From Chloroflexota bacterium (GTDB taxonomy: Bacteria > Chloroflexota > UBA5177 > JANWHV01), in NCBI GenBank assembly GCA_025450375.1, contig JANWHO010000077.1, positions 1 through 7,333 of the forward strand: 7,333 bases of DNA, written 5' to 3'. Of this stretch, positions 1,040 through 7,333 are shown in pieces. The notes beneath the pieces are model-generated. The model saw only the letters and a program-made list of their open reading frames with translations. It did no database searches and was not told the DNA's origin. The position numbers and the translations under genes were made by a program. Position 1 is the first letter of the stretch, and each line of letters begins with the position of its first letter.

Positions 1040-1411
1040 ATGACCCGATTCCAGTTCGGTACGTACCTGCGAGGAGAGCTTGGCCGCGGTTACAGCGTGG
1101 CGGATGACGATGGGGGCGCCGATGGCGATCTGCGTCTGGTGGTACTCCGCCGAGGAAAGGAGGCTCACCTTATGGTGGAAACAAACCTGGGTTGGGTTGG
1201 CGGGTTGGGAAGTCCCCCCTCCATGGAGGATAGGATGTTGGTCAAACACCTTGCCGTATTCGTTAAACGTTTCTTTGCCCATCCAGATTTGCTCCCCGGC
1301 GAGACATTGTGCTGGCCGGGCACGGCGGATAGCCGGAGCCAGGTTCGCCTGGCGCTCGATCCGCGAAAGTGGCGCCGCCTTGCTCCGCGCGCCGAGGAGG
1401 TACAGCCATGA
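1040..1411 (+). CDS. hypothetical protein, 123 aa
   Basis: I do not recognise a family. The ATG at 1040 is chosen because it follows the upstream stop by 10 bases and has a modest AGGA at 1028-1031; an in-frame ATG at 989 would overlap the upstream enzyme by 41 bases. The product is a small, probably soluble protein with no signal peptide or membrane segment. It has a charged acidic stretch (DDDGGADGD around residues 22-30), a single cysteine (Cys91), and a basic, Trp-containing C-terminus near PRKWRRLAPR. The mix of short beta-like segments (LRLVVLRRG, HLMVETNLGW) followed by a helical LVKHLAVFVKRFF stretch suggests one compact alpha/beta domain. Its stop codon overlaps the start of the next gene as ATGA, which suggests translational coupling with that membrane protein. 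Confidence 0.75.
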   Translation: MTRFQFGTYLRGELGRGYSVADDDGGADGDLRLVVLRRGKEAHLMVETNLGWVGGLGSPPSMEDRMLVKHLAVFVKRFFAHPDLLPGETLCWPGTADSRSQVRLALDPRKWRRLAPRAEEVQP

Positions 1412-2238
1412 TCCGCGACGCGGGAAGAGAACCAGCCTACCAACGGCCAGCTGGAGTTTCGATCTGGGATGACCTGCGGGATTCCCCGCTTCTGGAGCCG
1501 ACCACGGTAATCACCATTCAACGCGGCTATTTTCGCACCCTATTTTCCACGTTCTATGACCGGATGGGGAGCTTCATCCTGGTCAACCTGGCCGTCGCGG
1601 CCCAATTGGTGGTCGGCGCGGGCCTGGGCCTCCTGGTCGGCGGCTCATTCTCGGTCAAGACCGCGCTCCCCATCGTGATCATTTCCGTGGTTACGGGGTT
1701 GGTCGGCGCCCCCGCTTTCGCCGGACTCTTCGCCTACACGCGAGCCACCTGCGATCCTGACCAGGCGCCCACCTTCGGGGACTATGTGAGAGGAATGCGG
1801 CGGTACGCTCGGCGAAGTTGGGGCTTACTGGCCATCCAGGCCGCGACCGGCGGCATCCTTGTTCTCAACTTTCGTTTCTATGCCAGCATGCATGGGGTGG
1901 CGGGCGCGGCGATCACCGTGTTGATCCTCTTTCTGGGCCTTCTCTGGGCCATGGCCGGGGTCTATGTCTGGCCGCTTTTGGTTCGCGACCTGAGTTGGAA
2001 ACTGCTATTTCGCAACACGTTTTTCCTGGCCATGGCGGCCCCGCTCAGCGCGGTCGCCCTGCTGGCCGGCCTCACGGTGGTCAGCGCCCTGCTCATTCTC
2101 ACGCGGATCGGTGTGTTCATCGCCTTCTTCGTCATCTGGGCCCTGGCCGAGAATCTGGCCTTGCAGCGATTGGTGCGGATTTTTCACGCGAAACAAGAGC
2201 GACTCGCGGCGGCCTCACCTGATCAGATTCGGGAATAA
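1408..2238 (+). CDS. six-helix integral membrane protein, DUF624/YesL-like
   Basis: A 276-residue protein. The ATG at 1408 is preferred over an in-frame ATG at 1369 because a strong GAGGAGG ribosome site (1394-1400) lies 7 bases upstream and the start overlaps the preceding stop as ATGA. After a hydrophilic N-terminus of about 50 residues there are six predicted membrane helices, at roughly 56-79, 86-112, 138-157, 167-192, 205-228 and 229-250. The order FYDRMGSFILVNL, then a helix pair, then the basic GDYVRGMRRYARRSW loop, then VYVWPLLVRDLSWKLLFRN resembles the DUF624 (YesL) family of membrane proteins from memory. Family members are often found near sugar-transport genes in Firmicutes but have no settled biochemical role. 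There are no catalytic-looking polar motifs in the helices. The function is unknown, and the coupling to the 123-residue protein is the best contextual clue. Confidence 0.85.
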   Translation: MIRDAGREPAYQRPAGVSIWDDLRDSPLLEPTTVITIQRGYFRTLFSTFYDRMGSFILVNLAVAAQLVVGAGLGLLVGGSFSVKTALPIVIISVVTGLVGAPAFAGLFAYTRATCDPDQAPTFGDYVRGMRRYARRSWGLLAIQAATGGILVLNFRFYASMHGVAGAAITVLILFLGLLWAMAGVYVWPLLVRDLSWKLLFRNTFFLAMAAPLSAVALLAGLTVVSALLILTRIGVFIAFFVIWALAENLALQRLVRIFHAKQERLAAASPDQIRE

Positions 2239-2416
2239 CTCCCTTCCGATCTCCCGCCGTTCGCTTTTACCGAAGTTTCAGGTGACGACCGCTGCCCCGG
2301 CTTGCTCCTGCTTTGGCGTTGCGACCAAGACGGTAGCCTAGTCCAGTTTTTGGTCCAGCACCATCCATTGGCCGATGCGGGGCGCGGGCGGCTACGGCAG
2401 AATCGGAGATGTGGCG

Positions 2417-2445
2417 CCGTGCGGGAGGGCACTCTCGCAATACGG
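2417..2445 (+). promoter_or_regulatory. stem-loop in the 5' leader of the SCO fusion gene
   Basis: In RNA, UGCGGGAG (2420-2427) pairs with CUCUCGCA (2432-2439) as 8 bp including one G-U wobble, around a GGCA loop. An outer CCG (2417-2419) can pair with CGG (2443-2445) across a 3-base bulge. There is no U-tract, so it does not look like an intrinsic terminator. It may be an mRNA leader structure. In such GC-rich DNA a chance hairpin is also possible. Confidence 0.35.
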
Positions 2446-2447
2446 AA

Positions 2448-2470
2448 ACGGTGGGCAGGACCGTCACGGT
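2448..2470 (+). repeat. alternating ACGGT/ACCGT inverted repeats
   Basis: ACGGT (2448-2452), ACCGT (2460-2464) and ACGGT (2466-2470) occur within 23 bases. The middle copy can pair with either neighbour: with the first as a 5-bp hairpin with a 7-base loop, or with the third as the 11-base palindrome ACCGTCACGGT (2460-2470). The palindrome is also the shape of a small operator. It lies about 58 bases before the start codon of the SCO fusion gene. Confidence 0.35.
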
Positions 2471-2517
2471 GCGGAGAGCCCGCGCGGCGCCGACGGCCGC
2501 AACCAGACGTGGACTTC

Positions 2518-2523
2518 GGGAGG
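2518..2523 (+). promoter_or_regulatory. ribosome binding site that sets the start of the SCO fusion gene
   Basis: GGGAGG ends 4 bases before the ATG at 2528. This favours that start over an in-frame ATG at 2375, which would add 51 residues of low-complexity Gly/Arg-rich sequence in front of the membrane anchor. Confidence 0.6.
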
Positions 2524-2527
2524 CGGT

Positions 2528-3637
2528 ATGGGAAGATGGGCCGCGAGGTTGGCGCGCGCCGGATGGGCCAGGCTTCTGGCTCTCGTGGTGGGGCTGCTAG
2601 CCCTGCTGGTGCTGGCCCTGTTCCCGCGATCCATGCCAACCACCCAGGGCAGTACGCTGGCGCCGGACTTTACTCTGCCCACCGCCAGTGGCACCCCAAG
2701 CATCCTGACCCTGGACGCCCTGCGCGGGCATCCGGTCTTGCTCAACTTCTTCAACAGCGAATGCGTTCCCTGCATCCAGGAAATGCCCCTCTTGCGCCGA
2801 GCGGCTCAGGGCTATAAGGCGCGAGGGCTGGTCGTCCTTGGGGTCGCCACCGGCGGCGACTCGCGATTCGGAGCGCGGCGCTTCGCCCTGGAACAGCATC
2901 TCGGATTCCCCATAGTCGCGGACGAGCATCAGGATATTGCCTGGCGCTACCAGGTGGCCGGCTGGCCGACCAGCTTCTTCCTCGACGCACGGGGCCGTCT
3001 CCGCGGCCAGGTTGCCGGGCCACTCGACGAGGCCAGCCTGCGCGATGGACTGGCGCTGGCTGGAGCCCTCCCCTGCAACAACTGTCATGCGCTTACGCCG
3101 CCCGGGCCGGCAGCCACGGTCGGCGGCCTTAGCGCCGACACCATCTTCACGTCCGGCACCGCCGCCAAATCCTTTGTTCTGCGCGACCAACGGGGCCAGA
3201 TGGTCAGTTTACGGTCGCTCCGCGGCAAGGTGGTGGCCCTGACCTTTGTCAGCGCCATCTGCACCGCGGAGTGCCCCTTGATCGGGCGAGCCCTGGGCCA
3301 GGTGTCGCGCGACCTCGGAGTGGATGCGAAACGCATGGATATCGTCGCGATCAGCGTGGCGCCCGAGGCGGATTCGCCAGCGGCAATTCGCCATTTCGCC
3401 GCGCTGTCAGGTTGGAAGAACAGTGAATACCAGTATCTTTCGGGATCTCGGAAGGCGCTCGCGGCGGTGTGGTCCGCCTATGGCATCTGGGTTGGGCCAT
3501 ATGTTCCCGGCCAGGATCCGGCGCACACCCCGGCGGTCTATCTGATCGACCCGCGAGGGCGGCTGCGCGCCTACTATGATGTCCCATTTCTGGCCCCGAG
3601 GGTCGCCTCCTCCATTCGGGCCCTGCTTGCCCCTTGA
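2528..3637 (+). CDS. membrane-anchored TlpA-like thioredoxin / CxxCH / SCO1-SenC fusion protein
   Basis: A 369-residue protein with an N-terminal membrane anchor (about residues 13-33, after a basic MGRWAARLARAG start), so both domains should face outside the cytoplasm. Domain one (about 48-178) is a TlpA/redoxin-type thioredoxin fold with the active-site pair CVPC at 79-82 and the expected cis-Pro at 147 (GWPTSFFLDARG). A linker carries CNNCH at 183-187, the form of a c-type haem site. Domain two (about 210-369) is SCO1/SenC-like: the copper-binding CxxxC is CTAEC at 245-249, and the distal copper His is His333 in HTPAVYLIDPRG. SCO proteins deliver or reduce copper for the CuA site of cytochrome oxidase subunit II, and TlpA-type proteins reduce such thiols, so a fusion of reductase and chaperone is coherent. 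It converges on the bc-complex operon. Whether haem is attached at CNNCH is uncertain. Confidence 0.9.
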   Translation: MGRWAARLARAGWARLLALVVGLLALLVLALFPRSMPTTQGSTLAPDFTLPTASGTPSILTLDALRGHPVLLNFFNSECVPCIQEMPLLRRAAQGYKARGLVVLGVATGGDSRFGARRFALEQHLGFPIVADEHQDIAWRYQVAGWPTSFFLDARGRLRGQVAGPLDEASLRDGLALAGALPCNNCHALTPPGPAATVGGLSADTIFTSGTAAKSFVLRDQRGQMVSLRSLRGKVVALTFVSAICTAECPLIGRALGQVSRDLGVDAKRMDIVAISVAPEADSPAAIRHFAALSGWKNSEYQYLSGSRKALAAVWSAYGIWVGPYVPGQDPAHTPAVYLIDPRGRLRAYYDVPFLAPRVASSIRALLAP

Positions 3638-3752: not shown

Positions 3753-4034
3753 CTAATACAGGCCGCTGAGCCGCAAGACCACGAGGATCACCAGGATATG
3801 GAGGACGCCAAGAACACCCAGGAGCAGAGGGATGCCGATGAGCAGGAAGCGGGGCACCGGCTCCCTGTTCCCGCCATTCGGCCACTCACGCCAGTGTGGA
3901 TCGCCCGGAGGCGGCTCACCGGCATCGCGATAAAACGCGGGCGGGATGTCCGCCACCGTATCGCGAGGTTCCCGAACCTCGGATGCGAACTGGCGATCAT
4001 CCGTCCGTCGAATGGGGGTTTCCAGTTGGGGCAT
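3753..4034 (-). CDS. small tail-anchored membrane protein, 93 aa, unknown function
   Basis: The ATG at 4034 has a GAGGAAGAG ribosome site 4 bases upstream on the minus strand; an in-frame ATG at 4127 would only add an Arg-rich stretch unlike the rest. Residues 1-62 are hydrophilic and rich in Pro, Arg, Asp and Glu (PPAFYRDAGEPPPGDPHWRE). Residues 63-88 form one strongly hydrophobic helix with the repeated LLLGVLGVLHILVILVVL character, leaving only a few residues after it. It has no cysteines, and one His lies in the helix (His79). This is the layout of an accessory single-helix subunit. It follows the cytochrome b fusion gene on the same strand after 145 bases, so it may be an extra subunit of the bc complex or oxidase. 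I cannot assign it to a family. Confidence 0.7.
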   Translation of the reverse strand: MPQLETPIRRTDDRQFASEVREPRDTVADIPPAFYRDAGEPPPGDPHWREWPNGGNREPVPRFLLIGIPLLLGVLGVLHILVILVVLRLSGLY

Positions 4035-4179
4035 CGGACTCTTCCTCGCGCATATCGAATGCTTTCTATCCGCTCTCCATGACCGCCATTCACGTCGGGA
4101 ATGCCTCACGTGTGGTCGAGTACGCAAGTTTGGGGTCCGCGGACCGCCAAGCTGGTCGGTACTACCACAAATCTTACTC
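4035..4179 (-). other. 145-base gap with inverted repeats between the fusion gene and the small membrane protein
   Basis: This is the only long gap within the minus-strand block; the other junctions visible in it are 2 to 24 bases. It contains the perfect 12-base palindrome GGTCCGCGGACC (4134-4145). An overlapping imperfect palindrome (4143-4160, 7 of 9 pairs match) starts ACCG and ends CGGT. No long reading frame of its own is convincing. It may hold a processing site, a partial terminator or a promoter for the small gene. Confidence 0.4.
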
Positions 4180-6075
4180 CTACTTGGGCGGCACCACGGA
4201 TGGCTGACCTCCCGCTGTCACCTTAAATACCTCCCACATGCCGGCCGCCGCGTGCCCGGGCACGCCGCACACCAGCGCATAGGTGCCTGCCTTGTTCGCG
4301 ACAAAGGAGAAGTTCGAGGTCTGTCCTTTGACGATGCCGCTGGCCGGGTTGATCGAGGCGGCGCCGGAGAAGGCAAGCGGGAAATTGCTTGGCAGGTTCT
4401 TGTCGGCGCTCGGCGTGACCTCGGCGCTGTGTGGGAGCAACCCCTGGTTACTAAAGTCAACCGTAACATGGTAGCCCACCGGCACGCTGATCACCATCTG
4501 TCCGTTCCCGTAGCCATTGAAGTTGAAGCCGGAAACGGCGTTGGAGTAGCCGGCAATCAGGGTGAGAGTCGCGGTGTGCTTCGCGGTATCCCAGGCGATC
4601 CACTTCTGGGCGCCTTTCCCTCCCGGGGGCGGCGCCGCCGTCCGTGCCTGGCCGCCAAGACCGAACTTGTTGTAGACCGTCCGCGTTTGCAAGAAGTTGA
4701 CCAGGTCGTTCAGTTCCGACGCGGAGAGAATGCGCGCGAAGGACGGCATGTTCTCGCCCCCGTTCATGATCCGGATGATCATATCGGATGTGGTCAGGCG
4801 GCCGCCTACGTTCGTCAAATCCGGCCCCCGAAGCCCTCCATAGCCCCCGACCGAATGGCAATCCTCGCAGCCGGCTGTATGGAAGAGCATAGCGCCCCGG
4901 TACACCGGCCCGGAGGTCGCTCCGACCACCTTGGCAGGGAGCGGCGCCGCGTTGAAGTTGGGCGACCATGGGGCGAGGGCTCCGGTGAGGGTTAACGAGA
5001 AGATCATCAGTCCGGTGCACAGCACGACGATCATCGCCCACGGTCGGCGGGCGGGGCTGCGTTCGCCCCTGTTGGCCCAGATAGGCAGGAACAGCATGCC
5101 CACGATGAGCCCCAGCGGAGCGAGAATCATCATCACGTTCTCCATGGAAGGGGGGGTGAGCGCCAGCGCCGCGAAATACCAGAGGAAATACCAATCCGGC
5201 CGCGGCACGACGTTGATATCCGCTGGGTTGGGTGGCCCCGCCAGGGGCGGCGCCCCCACGGTGATCCCCAGGATGGTGATCAGCAGAAGCACCCCGATCC
5301 CAAAGGAGACGTCGCGCCAGGCGGCGTCGGGCCAGAATGGTACGCCATCGCGCTTGAGCATCTCGTGATACCAGGCTCGGTAGCGCTTTGGGTCGACGGG
5401 ACGGCCGCTCTTAGGCGGCTCGGAGATACCGGCATGCAGCACCATATAGAGATGGAAGCCGATAATGGCGAAGAGTAGACCGGGTAGGATGAAGACGTGT
5501 AGGGCATAGAACCGGCTGACCGTGACGCCGGTGACCGTATTGCCGCCAAGCAAGAGATCACCAACCCAGTTCCCGATGAACGGGGTGCGCACGCCTTGGA
5601 ACACGGTAATCATCACGGTGTAGACGCCCACCTGGTCCCAGCGCAGGATCTGGCCGGTAAAGACAATCCCCGCCGTCAGGAACAAGAGGATCACCCCCAG
5701 GATCCAATTCACCTCCCGCGGGTACTTATACGACCCCATCAGGAAGACGCGGAACATATGGATGCCGATCATAATCATCATCAGGTTCGCGCTGAAATAG
5801 TGGATACCGCGTATCTGGTAGCCAAAGATCGCACGTGTATTGATCCACAGTATGCTTTGATAGGCCTGCCCCGTGGAAGGGATGTATTGCGCGGCCAGCG
5901 GGATGCCCGTGACCACCGCCACGATGAAAGACACCAGGGTGGCGCTGCCGAAGACGTACGCCCAACTGATCGCTCCCGCGGTGGGAGGCACCGGGTGCTT
6001 GAGGATCGGCAGAAAGATCGCCGACACGCCAACACGATCGTCAAAGGCGGCCCACGCTCGCCGTAACCCATCCAT
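4180..6075 (-). CDS. cytochrome b (b6 + subunit IV) fused to cytochrome c and a sulfocyanin-like cupredoxin
   Basis: A 631-residue fusion. Residues 1-370 are a complete cytochrome b: a b6-like four-helix part with haem ligands His92/His106 (helix B) and His193/His208 (helix D), then a subunit IV-like three-helix part with the quinol-site PDWY at 293-296. The HX14H spacing on helix D is the b6 type. By alignment from memory, Val41 replaces the Cys that binds the extra haem of b6. Residues about 390-470 form a monohaem cytochrome c with CEDCH at 403-407 and a likely Met443 ligand in ENMPSF. A Pro/Gly linker (471-495) leads to a cupredoxin with ligands His549, Cys603, His608 and Met613; the CGVPGHAAAGMW signature is sulfocyanin-like. 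Seven helices put the c and copper domains on the outer side. The start at 6075 has GGAGG (6084-6088) 8 bases upstream. It would oxidise menaquinol with the adjacent Rieske protein and pass electrons to the c domain and then copper. Confidence 0.95.
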   Translation of the reverse strand: MDGLRRAWAAFDDRVGVSAIFLPILKHPVPPTAGAISWAYVFGSATLVSFIVAVVTGIPLAAQYIPSTGQAYQSILWINTRAIFGYQIRGIHYFSANLMMIMIGIHMFRVFLMGSYKYPREVNWILGVILLFLTAGIVFTGQILRWDQVGVYTVMITVFQGVRTPFIGNWVGDLLLGGNTVTGVTVSRFYALHVFILPGLLFAIIGFHLYMVLHAGISEPPKSGRPVDPKRYRAWYHEMLKRDGVPFWPDAAWRDVSFGIGVLLLITILGITVGAPPLAGPPNPADINVVPRPDWYFLWYFAALALTPPSMENVMMILAPLGLIVGMLFLPIWANRGERSPARRPWAMIVVLCTGLMIFSLTLTGALAPWSPNFNAAPLPAKVVGATSGPVYRGAMLFHTAGCEDCHSVGGYGGLRGPDLTNVGGRLTTSDMIIRIMNGGENMPSFARILSASELNDLVNFLQTRTVYNKFGLGGQARTAAPPPGGKGAQKWIAWDTAKHTATLTLIAGYSNAVSGFNFNGYGNGQMVISVPVGYHVTVDFSNQGLLPHSAEVTPSADKNLPSNFPLAFSGAASINPASGIVKGQTSNFSFVANKAGTYALVCGVPGHAAAGMWEVFKVTAGGQPSVVPPK

Positions 6076-6099: not shown

Positions 6100-6609
6100 T
6101 CAATAGGTGTATGGGACGCCGGTCGCCAGCACCTCGACCTGGCCTTTATGCACGCGAACTGGATACTTCTGTAACCCTCGTGGCGGCGGTCCGCCGGCCA
6201 CGTCGCCATTGGCATAATAGATGCCGCCGTGACAGGGACAGAGGAATATCTGCGCCTGCTGTTCCCAGCGGACGGGGCAGCCAAGGTGCTGGCAGTAAAT
6301 GGAAAAGGCCGTGAAACTGGCCGCGTCGTCGCGCCGCAGCCAGGCGCCGGTCTTGGCCGACACGCCCGTCCAGGCGAGCGGGTCGGCATTAAGGAAGGTC
6401 ACCTCGACGGTAGTGCCGATCGTGAAGGCATCGGGCTTCCCTACCGCGCGCCAGGCCGTGGGATTGCCATGGAGGATCGGCTCCAGCCACGAGCCGATGA
6501 ACGGCACGCCGACAATCACGCCGCCCAGCGCGCTCAGGGCCAGACTGAGCCGATTGAGGAAGCGCCGGCGTTCTTCAGTGTACGGGGCAGGCGTCTTGTA
6601 TTCCTGCAT
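6100..6609 (-). CDS. Rieske 2Fe-2S protein of the cytochrome bc complex
   Basis: A 169-residue protein with an N-terminal membrane anchor (about 21-41) preceded by RRRFLNRL, which fits a Tat signal; Rieske proteins are typically exported folded by Tat. The cluster motifs are CQHLGC (Cys106, His108, Cys111) and CPCHGG (Cys124, Cys126, His127). Cys106, His108, Cys124 and His127 should hold the 2Fe-2S cluster, and Cys111-Cys126 should form the disulfide of high-potential Rieske proteins. A PPPRGLQKYPV segment near the C-terminus is the usual Pro loop. It takes the first electron from quinol at the cytochrome b site and passes it to cytochrome c. The start at 6609 has a GGAGGG site (6616-6621) and lies 2 bases after the stop of the upstream gene; 24 bases separate its stop from the cytochrome b fusion gene. 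Length and motifs are complete. Confidence 0.96.
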   Translation of the reverse strand: MQEYKTPAPYTEERRRFLNRLSLALSALGGVIVGVPFIGSWLEPILHGNPTAWRAVGKPDAFTIGTTVEVTFLNADPLAWTGVSAKTGAWLRRDDAASFTAFSIYCQHLGCPVRWEQQAQIFLCPCHGGIYYANGDVAGGPPPRGLQKYPVRVHKGQVEVLATGVPYTY

Positions 6610-6611
6610 CG

Positions 6612-7013
6612 CTATCCCTCCGGTCCTCCGAACTCAGCAACCAAATCCAGGATCCACCCAACCAGGCCAACAATCAGCAAGAAGAGACCCAAACCCAGGA
6701 CGAAGAGGTTACTGATCAGGCCCCACATGAAAAAGGCGATGCCCAGGCCAAACACCATCGGCCAATAGGTCGGACGCGCCACCACCTCGGGGTCCGGCCT
6801 ACCCCAGCCCGGCCGCATCGGCTCGCCATGCTGGGGGAGGGAGAGATCGTACGGATCCGCGGTCCTCTGTTCCCGATTTCCAGCGATGGCCGGTTTTTGC
6901 CTCGGCTCCGATCCGCCGGCTGCCTGGCTGGCGGCGCGCGTGAAGAAGGCCAGGCTGAAGAGGCCGGCGATCGCGCCCAGCACCTTCGAGAGCACTGAAC
7001 CAAGAAACTTCAT
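6612..7013 (-). CDS. small oxidase subunit IV-like membrane protein, 133 aa
   Basis: A short N-terminal hydrophobic segment (about residues 8-25) leads into a polar linker rich in Gln, Arg and Pro (26-80). Two closely packed helices follow (about 83-101 and 103-124), beginning PTYWPMVFGLGIAF. The TYWP entry followed by two back-to-back helices resembles the small subunit IV (CtaF-like) or fused C-terminal tails of bacterial cytochrome c oxidases, recalled from the family rather than measured. No haem or metal motif is present. The ATG at 7013 follows a very strong ribosome site that overlaps the upstream stop. The position between a CtaG-like gene and the Rieske gene supports a role in the oxidase or in a bc-oxidase supercomplex. 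The N-terminal hydrophobic part could be a signal peptide or a third helix. Confidence 0.7.
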   Translation of the reverse strand: MKFLGSVLSKVLGAIAGLFSLAFFTRAASQAAGGSEPRQKPAIAGNREQRTADPYDLSLPQHGEPMRPGWGRPDPEVVARPTYWPMVFGLGIAFFMWGLISNLFVLGLGLFLLIVGLVGWILDLVAEFGGPEG

Positions 7014-7017
7014 TCAA

Positions 7018-7025
7018 CCCTCCTT
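7018..7025 (-). promoter_or_regulatory. strong ribosome binding site overlapping the ctaG stop
   Basis: Read on the minus strand, TAAGGAGGGTTGAATG joins the stop codon of the CtaG-like gene to an AAGGAGGG site and then to the ATG of the subunit IV-like gene. The overlap indicates translation within one transcript. Confidence 0.75.
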
Positions 7026-7333
7026 ACCGAATAGATGACAGGTCAGAGGCCGCCGGAAACGGACCTGGCTCGGCGGCCTCCTGATACCAACGGGCGAGCG
7101 CCCAAAGACAGGTCAACAAATAGATCGGTCCGCCCGTTGCCCACATCAGCATGCCGCCGAGTTGCTGATCCAGGGCATACGAGATGCCCCACTGCACTCG
7201 GATCAGCGGCAGGATGCGCAGAGTATCCGTTGGATACTGGTAGGCGGGATAGAGGCCGGGTGCGGCAAAGGTGATGATCACGCCCAGAATGCTGCTCGCG
7301 AAGGCGGCGGTGATCAGATAGGCCATGGCGGGC
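7024..7333 (-). CDS. ctaG: CtaG-like cytochrome c oxidase assembly factor, 5' partial
   Basis: Only the C-terminal part (about 103 residues) is in the window; the frame stays open to the right edge. The visible part has a membrane helix (SSILGVIITFA), a PGLYPAYQY loop, then LDQQLGGMLMWATGGPIYLL leading into a final helix and a polar tail. The DQQLGG-MW-GG motif before the last helix is characteristic of the caa3-type CtaG family, which assists assembly of the CuB/haem-copper site of cytochrome oxidase. The ATG at 7326 is probably internal: no ribosome site is seen in the few bases available and the full family is much longer. The oxidase structural genes are likely to lie upstream, past the window edge. 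Confidence 0.85.
   Translation of the reverse strand, partial: PAMAYLITAAFASSILGVIITFAAPGLYPAYQYPTDTLRILPLIRVQWGISYALDQQLGGMLMWATGGPIYLLTCLWALARWYQEAAEPGPFPAASDLSSIR

Follow-up and report, generated by a model that had tools for sequence, protein, structure and literature searches.

Can the catalytic subunit of a respiratory complex III carry its own electron carrier on a leash? The question is raised by a stretch of 7,333 nucleotides from a Chloroflexota bacterium (assembly GCA_025450375.1, contig JANWHO010000077.1; the whole stretch is called the window). On its minus strand lies a gene for a protein of 631 amino acids in which a cytochrome b6-like part, a subunit IV-like part, a cytochrome c domain and a sulfocyanin-like copper domain follow one another. 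We find that this single chain is real and suggest that its copper domain passes electrons from haem c to an oxidase.

Domain structure of the fusion protein

The gene and its parts are as follows.

4180..6075, minus: b6-IV-c-sulfocyanin fusion gene, open reading frame with ATG start, 631 amino acids
5416..6075, minus: cytochrome b6-like part, residues 1-220, with His92, His106, His193 and His208; four helices
4966..5415, minus: subunit IV-like part, residues 221-370, with PDWY at 293-296; three helices
4678..4923, minus: cytochrome c domain, residues 385-466, with CEDCH at 403-407 and Met443
4609..4677, minus: linker, residues 467-489, rich in Gly, Ala and Pro; predicted local distance difference test score (pLDDT) about 30
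4192..4608, minus: sulfocyanin-like type-1 copper domain, residues 490-628, with His549, Cys603, His608 and Met613

Pfam matches Cytochrome_B at residues 32-213 (1.4e-35), Cytochrom_B_C at 292-372 (4.1e-6), Cytochrome_CBB3 at 393-462 (1.7e-6) and the sulfocyanin family SoxE at 493-619 (2.8e-19; 69.5 bits against a gathering cut-off of 21). With the NCBIfam sulfocyanin equivalog TIGR03094 the copper domain scores 73.5 bits, below the cut-off of 168.4. By this equivalog cut-off the domain is sulfocyanin-like and not a sulfocyanin proper. The four haem-b histidines can be read directly from the translation. The haem c site comprises Cys403, Cys406 and His407 together with Met443, which is probably the axial ligand, and the copper ligand set is complete and sits in a predicted cupredoxin fold.

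A hydropathy scan yields nine windows. Since two pairs of them overlap we count seven membrane segments, the last of which ends at residue 369; beyond residue 380 the hydropathy stays at or below about 1.0. In the AlphaFold2 model (mean pLDDT 77) seven helices are at least 23 residues long, the c domain is built of short helices, residues 468-490 are a low-confidence stretch and beta strands begin at 493. Within the full chain the copper domain is only fairly modelled; modelled alone it reaches a pLDDT of 94.6. The haem c and copper domains are thus predicted to lie on the outer face of the membrane. An earlier reading of the window from its sequence alone had claimed that cytochrome b, cytochrome c and a blue-copper domain share one polypeptide, that all cofactor ligands are present and that both extra domains face outward. 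The Pfam domains within one open reading frame and the translation bear out the first two claims, and both topology predictions agree with the third.

The haem-b histidines, the PDWY motif and the adjacent Rieske gene (see below) identify the protein, as judged from sequence, as the core subunit of a Rieske/cytochrome b complex. The b6f subclass of these complexes is recognized by 14 residues between the histidine pair of helix D and by seven helices (b6 plus IV). In the fusion 14 residues separate His193 and His208, and with its seven predicted helices the protein would belong to this subclass. However, Ser49 aligns with the helix A cysteine of 2zt9_A, which we take to be the covalent attachment site of haem c_n; a cysteine stands here in only one of the 55 rows of our b-c family alignment. 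Further, b6 and IV form one chain and not the separate chains of b6f. Because of this serine and the single chain we set the fusion apart from true b6f complexes.

Homologous fusions

We queried 5.8 billion protein sequences with the fusion and obtained 2211 matches among 7998 candidates scored; the best 120 were listed. Seven full-length clusters among these, the window's own included, have the b-IV-c-copper architecture and are 67-100% identical. P0008 is a partial fusion (96% identical) which according to NCBI stems from a Chloroflexota metagenome-assembled genome (MAG). The copper site pattern is present in these eight matches (P0001-P0008). A search with the copper domain adds two fragments, P0134 and P0135, which start in the c domain past the CxxCH and continue into the copper domain. 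The c-copper junction is therefore crossed by ten clusters, seven full length and three partial, from the sources jgi, lgn and ncbi. That two genes were joined here through a frameshift, a mis-assembly or a chimera has, in our view, practically no probability left, since ten clusters from several sources run through residues 470 to 495, where the sequence-only reading had seen the danger of a joining error; such an error, for which nothing speaks, is ruled out and the b6-IV-c-copper chain is confirmed as real. That reading had also proposed a search for the same b-c-cupredoxin order elsewhere, which gave these ten clusters and no common occurrence.

In all seven full-length fusions the listed ligands, the four copper ligands among them, and PDWY are invariant, save for Tyr296 (six Tyr, one Phe). 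In the wider 55-row alignment the four haem-b histidines stand in all 54 rows covering the region, and CxxCH, Met443 and the Pro and Trp of PDWY in 55 of 55. Above 60% identity, only P0009 among the matches listed is without a copper domain. This protein (74% identical, 445 amino acids) was considered as a copper-less relative; it ends inside the c domain and is uninformative.

The wider family and its operon

The remaining relatives among the best 120 of the 2211 matches are 52-59% identical to the window's protein and have no copper site; chains of this b-IV-c family are 460-500 amino acids long and end after haem c. The sequence-only reading had stated that subunit IV is known to occur fused to cytochrome c in Gram-positive bc complexes. 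This is true and understated: CxxCH is found in 119 of the 120 matches listed, and b-c single chains are described for the anammox protein Kuste3096-3097 and as frequent in Gram-positives (PMC12954380). The whole b6+IV+c chain is a common family and not new. One relative, P0010 (57-60% identical), is a cytochrome b of 542 amino acids in which much of the b6 part is present twice, by duplication or through an assembly fault.

Scanning the contigs of GTDB representatives with two peptide patterns confirmed 440 relatives, and the following refers to the best 80. These belong to many named phyla and are 47-58% identical to the window. The matched query ranges end at residues 454-502, and no tblastn match to the copper domain was obtained in these loci at E 1e-5. 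A Rieske match lies upstream of the b gene in 80 of 80 loci, and in 54 a relative of the small protein encoded at 6612-7013 lies upstream of Rieske. CtaG was found in 53 and COX2, upstream, in 50; some contigs are too short for more. As all 51 COX2 matches carry a CxxCH after residue 150, the oxidase of these loci is of the caa3 kind. The window has the same gene order from Rieske to CtaG, after which the contig ends (7333):

6100..6609, minus: Rieske iron-sulfur protein, 169 amino acids, directly upstream of the fusion, with CQHLGC and CPCHG; Pfam Rieske 1.2e-9
6612..7013, minus: small membrane protein; its match to oxidase subunit IV is weak (19.5 bits, below the Pfam cut-off of 26.9)
7024..7326, minus: CtaG (caa3 oxidase assembly factor), C-terminal piece, cut by the contig end

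Copper-less chains are common together with the Rieske-to-CtaG operon; the copper tail is thus an extra on a widespread operon for oxidase and complex III. Within these searches it is a rare addition, conserved where present, and the earlier suspicion that a copper tail on a full b6+IV core is unusual agrees with its lack of a match in the 80 loci.

We also searched genome sets. The b-c-copper fusion was not found in 400 Chloroflexota genomes (sampled evenly from the phylum of G010, with no more than six candidates scored in each) nor in the class to which the two closest MAGs belong; these searches did turn up separate domains of the sulfocyanin type, at up to 52% identity. With a c-copper query of 251 amino acids (c domain at about 5-86) against overlapping sets of 12, 400, 61, 7 and 43 genomes, matches begun in the c domain proper never passed residue 126 and copper matches never began before 85. 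With the full protein against 81 and 61 genomes, mostly the same, matches begun in the b part never passed residue 500.

Another gene of the window is on the opposite strand and not part of the operon of the fusion:

2375..3637, plus: thioredoxin (TlpA/ResA-like), CNNCH and SCO1 in one chain (Pfam; motifs read from the sequence)

Its thioredoxin domain has CVPC and its SCO1 domain CxxxC; the true start is probably near 2528. TlpA/ResA-like thioredoxins and SCO1 are both assembly factor types of oxidase copper sites, and by analogy the product may insert copper as a single-chain factor. A small open reading frame directly downstream of the fusion gene (3753-4127, minus) has a single hydrophobic segment at the C-terminus; in the 80 relatives' loci no convincing counterpart was found (best tblastn E 0.81). 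The frame 1396-2238 (plus, 280 amino acids) is hydrophobic-looking and has no match in Pfam (E 0.1) or NCBIfam (E 0.01).

Other sulfocyanin fusions and the origin of the copper tail

The copper-domain search among long proteins gave 21 matches among 443 candidates, the bc fusions included. P0123, a protein of 510 amino acids, consists of COX2 with the CuA motif CVEFCGAGHAWM, followed by cytochrome c and then a sulfocyanin domain which is 61% identical to that of the window; its linker is longer. Together with the window's fusion this places c-sulfocyanin tails on complex III as well as complex IV, as seen on separate contigs, and suggests that two different complexes have each received the same carrier domain. 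In P0121 and P0122 (67% and 64%) sulfocyanin stands behind DUF4399, P0124-P0127 have more than one sulfocyanin stretch per protein, and P0133 combines a pyrroloquinoline quinone (PQQ) dehydrogenase with sulfocyanin. G065, of the phylum Chloroflexota, has 12 sulfocyanin-type matches. Among its frames are four of 700-731 amino acids with a Pfam PQQ propeller and a C-terminal SoxE domain, and two partial ones (L126, L127); one such frame shares its contig with a PqqD gene. By their domains, these frames appear to be a donor-side fusion of the same carrier type:

L114, 17399-19573, minus: PQQ-dehydrogenase-sulfocyanin frame, G065
L116, 1417-3609, plus: the same
L117, 3878-6043, minus: the same
L118, 4224-6323, plus: the same

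Two groups of candidates were discarded. COX2-like matches beside sulfocyanin in relatives of G001 (L094, L128) are weak, and by eye one protein resembles a cupredoxin standing alone and the other a membrane protein of the ferredoxin type. Of the eight long sulfocyanin frames L083-L090, the three viewed resemble, again by eye, a lipoprotein-type signal and sulfocyanin with an unrelated frame upstream.

Copper-domain trees were built from 114 rows and then from 50 of these, picked after seeing the first tree and without P0185 and the most distant groups. P0159, P0176, P0180, P0200-P0253, duplicates and matches below 100 residues were left out of both. In the 114-row tree P0005 falls outside the other nine fusion domains, which group with the long-branch P0185 (83/97). 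In the 50-row tree all ten bc copper domains form one clade (97/90), consistent with a single gain of the bc copper tail. P0123 adjoins this clade together with P0153; a clade uniting P0123 with the ten fusion domains is not established, nor is it firmly rejected (p-AU 0.078).

Proposed electron path

The domain arrangement points to a tethered arm that hands electrons over. The best reading of the locus, to which we give a probability of roughly 0.6, is an exit relay from quinol over Rieske, haem c and copper to an oxidase. It starts from what is seen directly, that is, domain order, ligands, predicted topology, the operon type of the relatives and one copper-tail clade in one of two trees. 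In a Rieske/cytochrome b complex of the b6+IV kind the fusion product would serve as catalytic subunit and carry its own two-step relay on the outer side. Quinol would be oxidized at the Qo site (PDWY), one electron leaving over the b haems and the other via Rieske, which would pass it to the haem c domain placed after helix G. Haem c would then reduce the copper domain, with the flexible linker of about 23 residues acting as the arm, and the arm would bring the electron to CuA or to the haem c of the caa3-type oxidase encoded in this operon. We infer the redox order, the route after Rieske, the motion of the arm and the identity of the acceptor.

Several points weigh against this relay. The oxidase genes lie past the contig end at 7333, so that the partner is deduced from relatives of 47-58% identity, and 30 of the 80 relatives' loci are without a COX2 match, some of them on short contigs. 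The b-c relatives of about 460 residues manage without a copper domain; the arm should thus be dispensable for the basic path. P0123 comes from a contig other than the window's. Finally, the in-frame start-type codons ATG443 and TTG462 precede the copper domain, and by codons a separate translation is possible.

The strongest competitor, which we consider unlikely, reverses the direction: the copper domain would be an entry port through which outside donors such as PQQ dehydrogenase-sulfocyanins, Fe(II) or other carriers feed haem c and from there the oxidase or, uphill, quinone. The PQQ fusions of P0133 and G065 and the 12 sulfocyanin-type matches of G065 would supply such donors, and sulfocyanins have been tied to Fe(II) oxidation (PMC10654088, PMC3750248). 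However, the PQQ-linked sulfocyanins are far from the fused bc copper domains in the 114-row tree, no iron-oxidation or PQQ family is present among the nine window proteins scanned with Pfam, and the operon of the complex is of an oxidase type. Still less probable is that the copper domain mainly docks or holds a supercomplex by pairing with a homologous tail of oxidase subunit II, as present in P0123, while electrons pass from haem c to haem c. The closest match of the c domain in the PDB by sequence is actinobacterial QcrC (E 1.8e-6). QcrC links complexes III and IV directly and gives its electrons straight to the oxidase. Yet docking alone does not require the copper ligands that are invariant in seven of seven fusions, and the window and P0123 are seen on separate contigs. 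A role as copper store or chaperone for the CuA and CuB sites, to which the nearby genes for CtaG and the thioredoxin-SCO1 protein might point, is very improbable, as a full His-Cys-His-Met set in a cupredoxin fold behind haem c marks an electron-transfer site.

Under the exit relay the copper domain may plausibly be, as the sequence-only reading proposed, the mobile carrier that could replace soluble cytochrome c, and the c-sulfocyanin tail on COX2 points to copper arms that can work at either end. Tethering should nevertheless not be assumed to replace separate carriers, because G065 carries so many sulfocyanin-type matches. More speculative, and in our estimate possible rather than probable, is a fully tethered Chloroflexota chain: in complex III the b subunit and in complex IV subunit II would each end in haem c and a homologous sulfocyanin, and electrons would pass between two leashed copper arms, possibly also from PQQ dehydrogenase-sulfocyanins, with no diffusing carrier. 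The window's fusion is a natural test case for whether respiration can do without a diffusing carrier once the carrier is leashed, and for how redox potentials are ordered along a tethered arm.

Comparison with known systems

Within the open-licence literature searched we found no description of a b-c-copper chain, and a complex III catalytic subunit that unites c haem and blue-copper carrier in a single chain is to that extent undescribed; an account in subscription journals is possible. The Bacillus-type bc complex (QcrA/QcrB/QcrC) has a b6+IV core like the window, with cytochrome c fused to subunit IV, b6 as a separate chain and no known copper domain. In the window the c domain is in a single chain with b6 and with the copper domain. 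In the actinobacterial QcrB/QcrC-aa3 supercomplex a bound cytochrome c replaces the soluble carrier; this QcrC, the nearest relative of the window's c domain in the PDB, is a separate di-haem protein not known to have a copper domain.

The SoxM supercomplex of Sulfolobus acidocaldarius has its sulfocyanin as a protein of its own and is not known to contain a cytochrome c. Sulfocyanin serves complex III there, whereas in the window it is fused, behind haem c. The SoxM sulfocyanin is described as acting with Rieske and cytochrome b in a role much like that of complex III's cytochrome c (PMC3750248). In 23 of 30 complex III loci of Ca. Angelarchaeales a gene for a single blue-copper domain lies upstream of Rieske; unlike in the window it is a separate gene and is described without cytochrome c (PMC9038741).

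Closest are the b6-IV-c chains, both Kuste3096-3097 and the family of 460-500 amino acids. They share with the window the union of b and c in one chain and, in the family, the operon neighbours, and differ in that they stop after haem c. The Kuste chain is moreover described as di-haem (PMC12954380), and the window's is mono-haem. Chloroflexi have been noted for other redox fusions, for example C1-C2-NirS (PMC8756737). The oxidase subunit II of the P0123 type, from a metagenome, has the same c-sulfocyanin order as the window, but on COX2 of complex IV and behind a longer linker.
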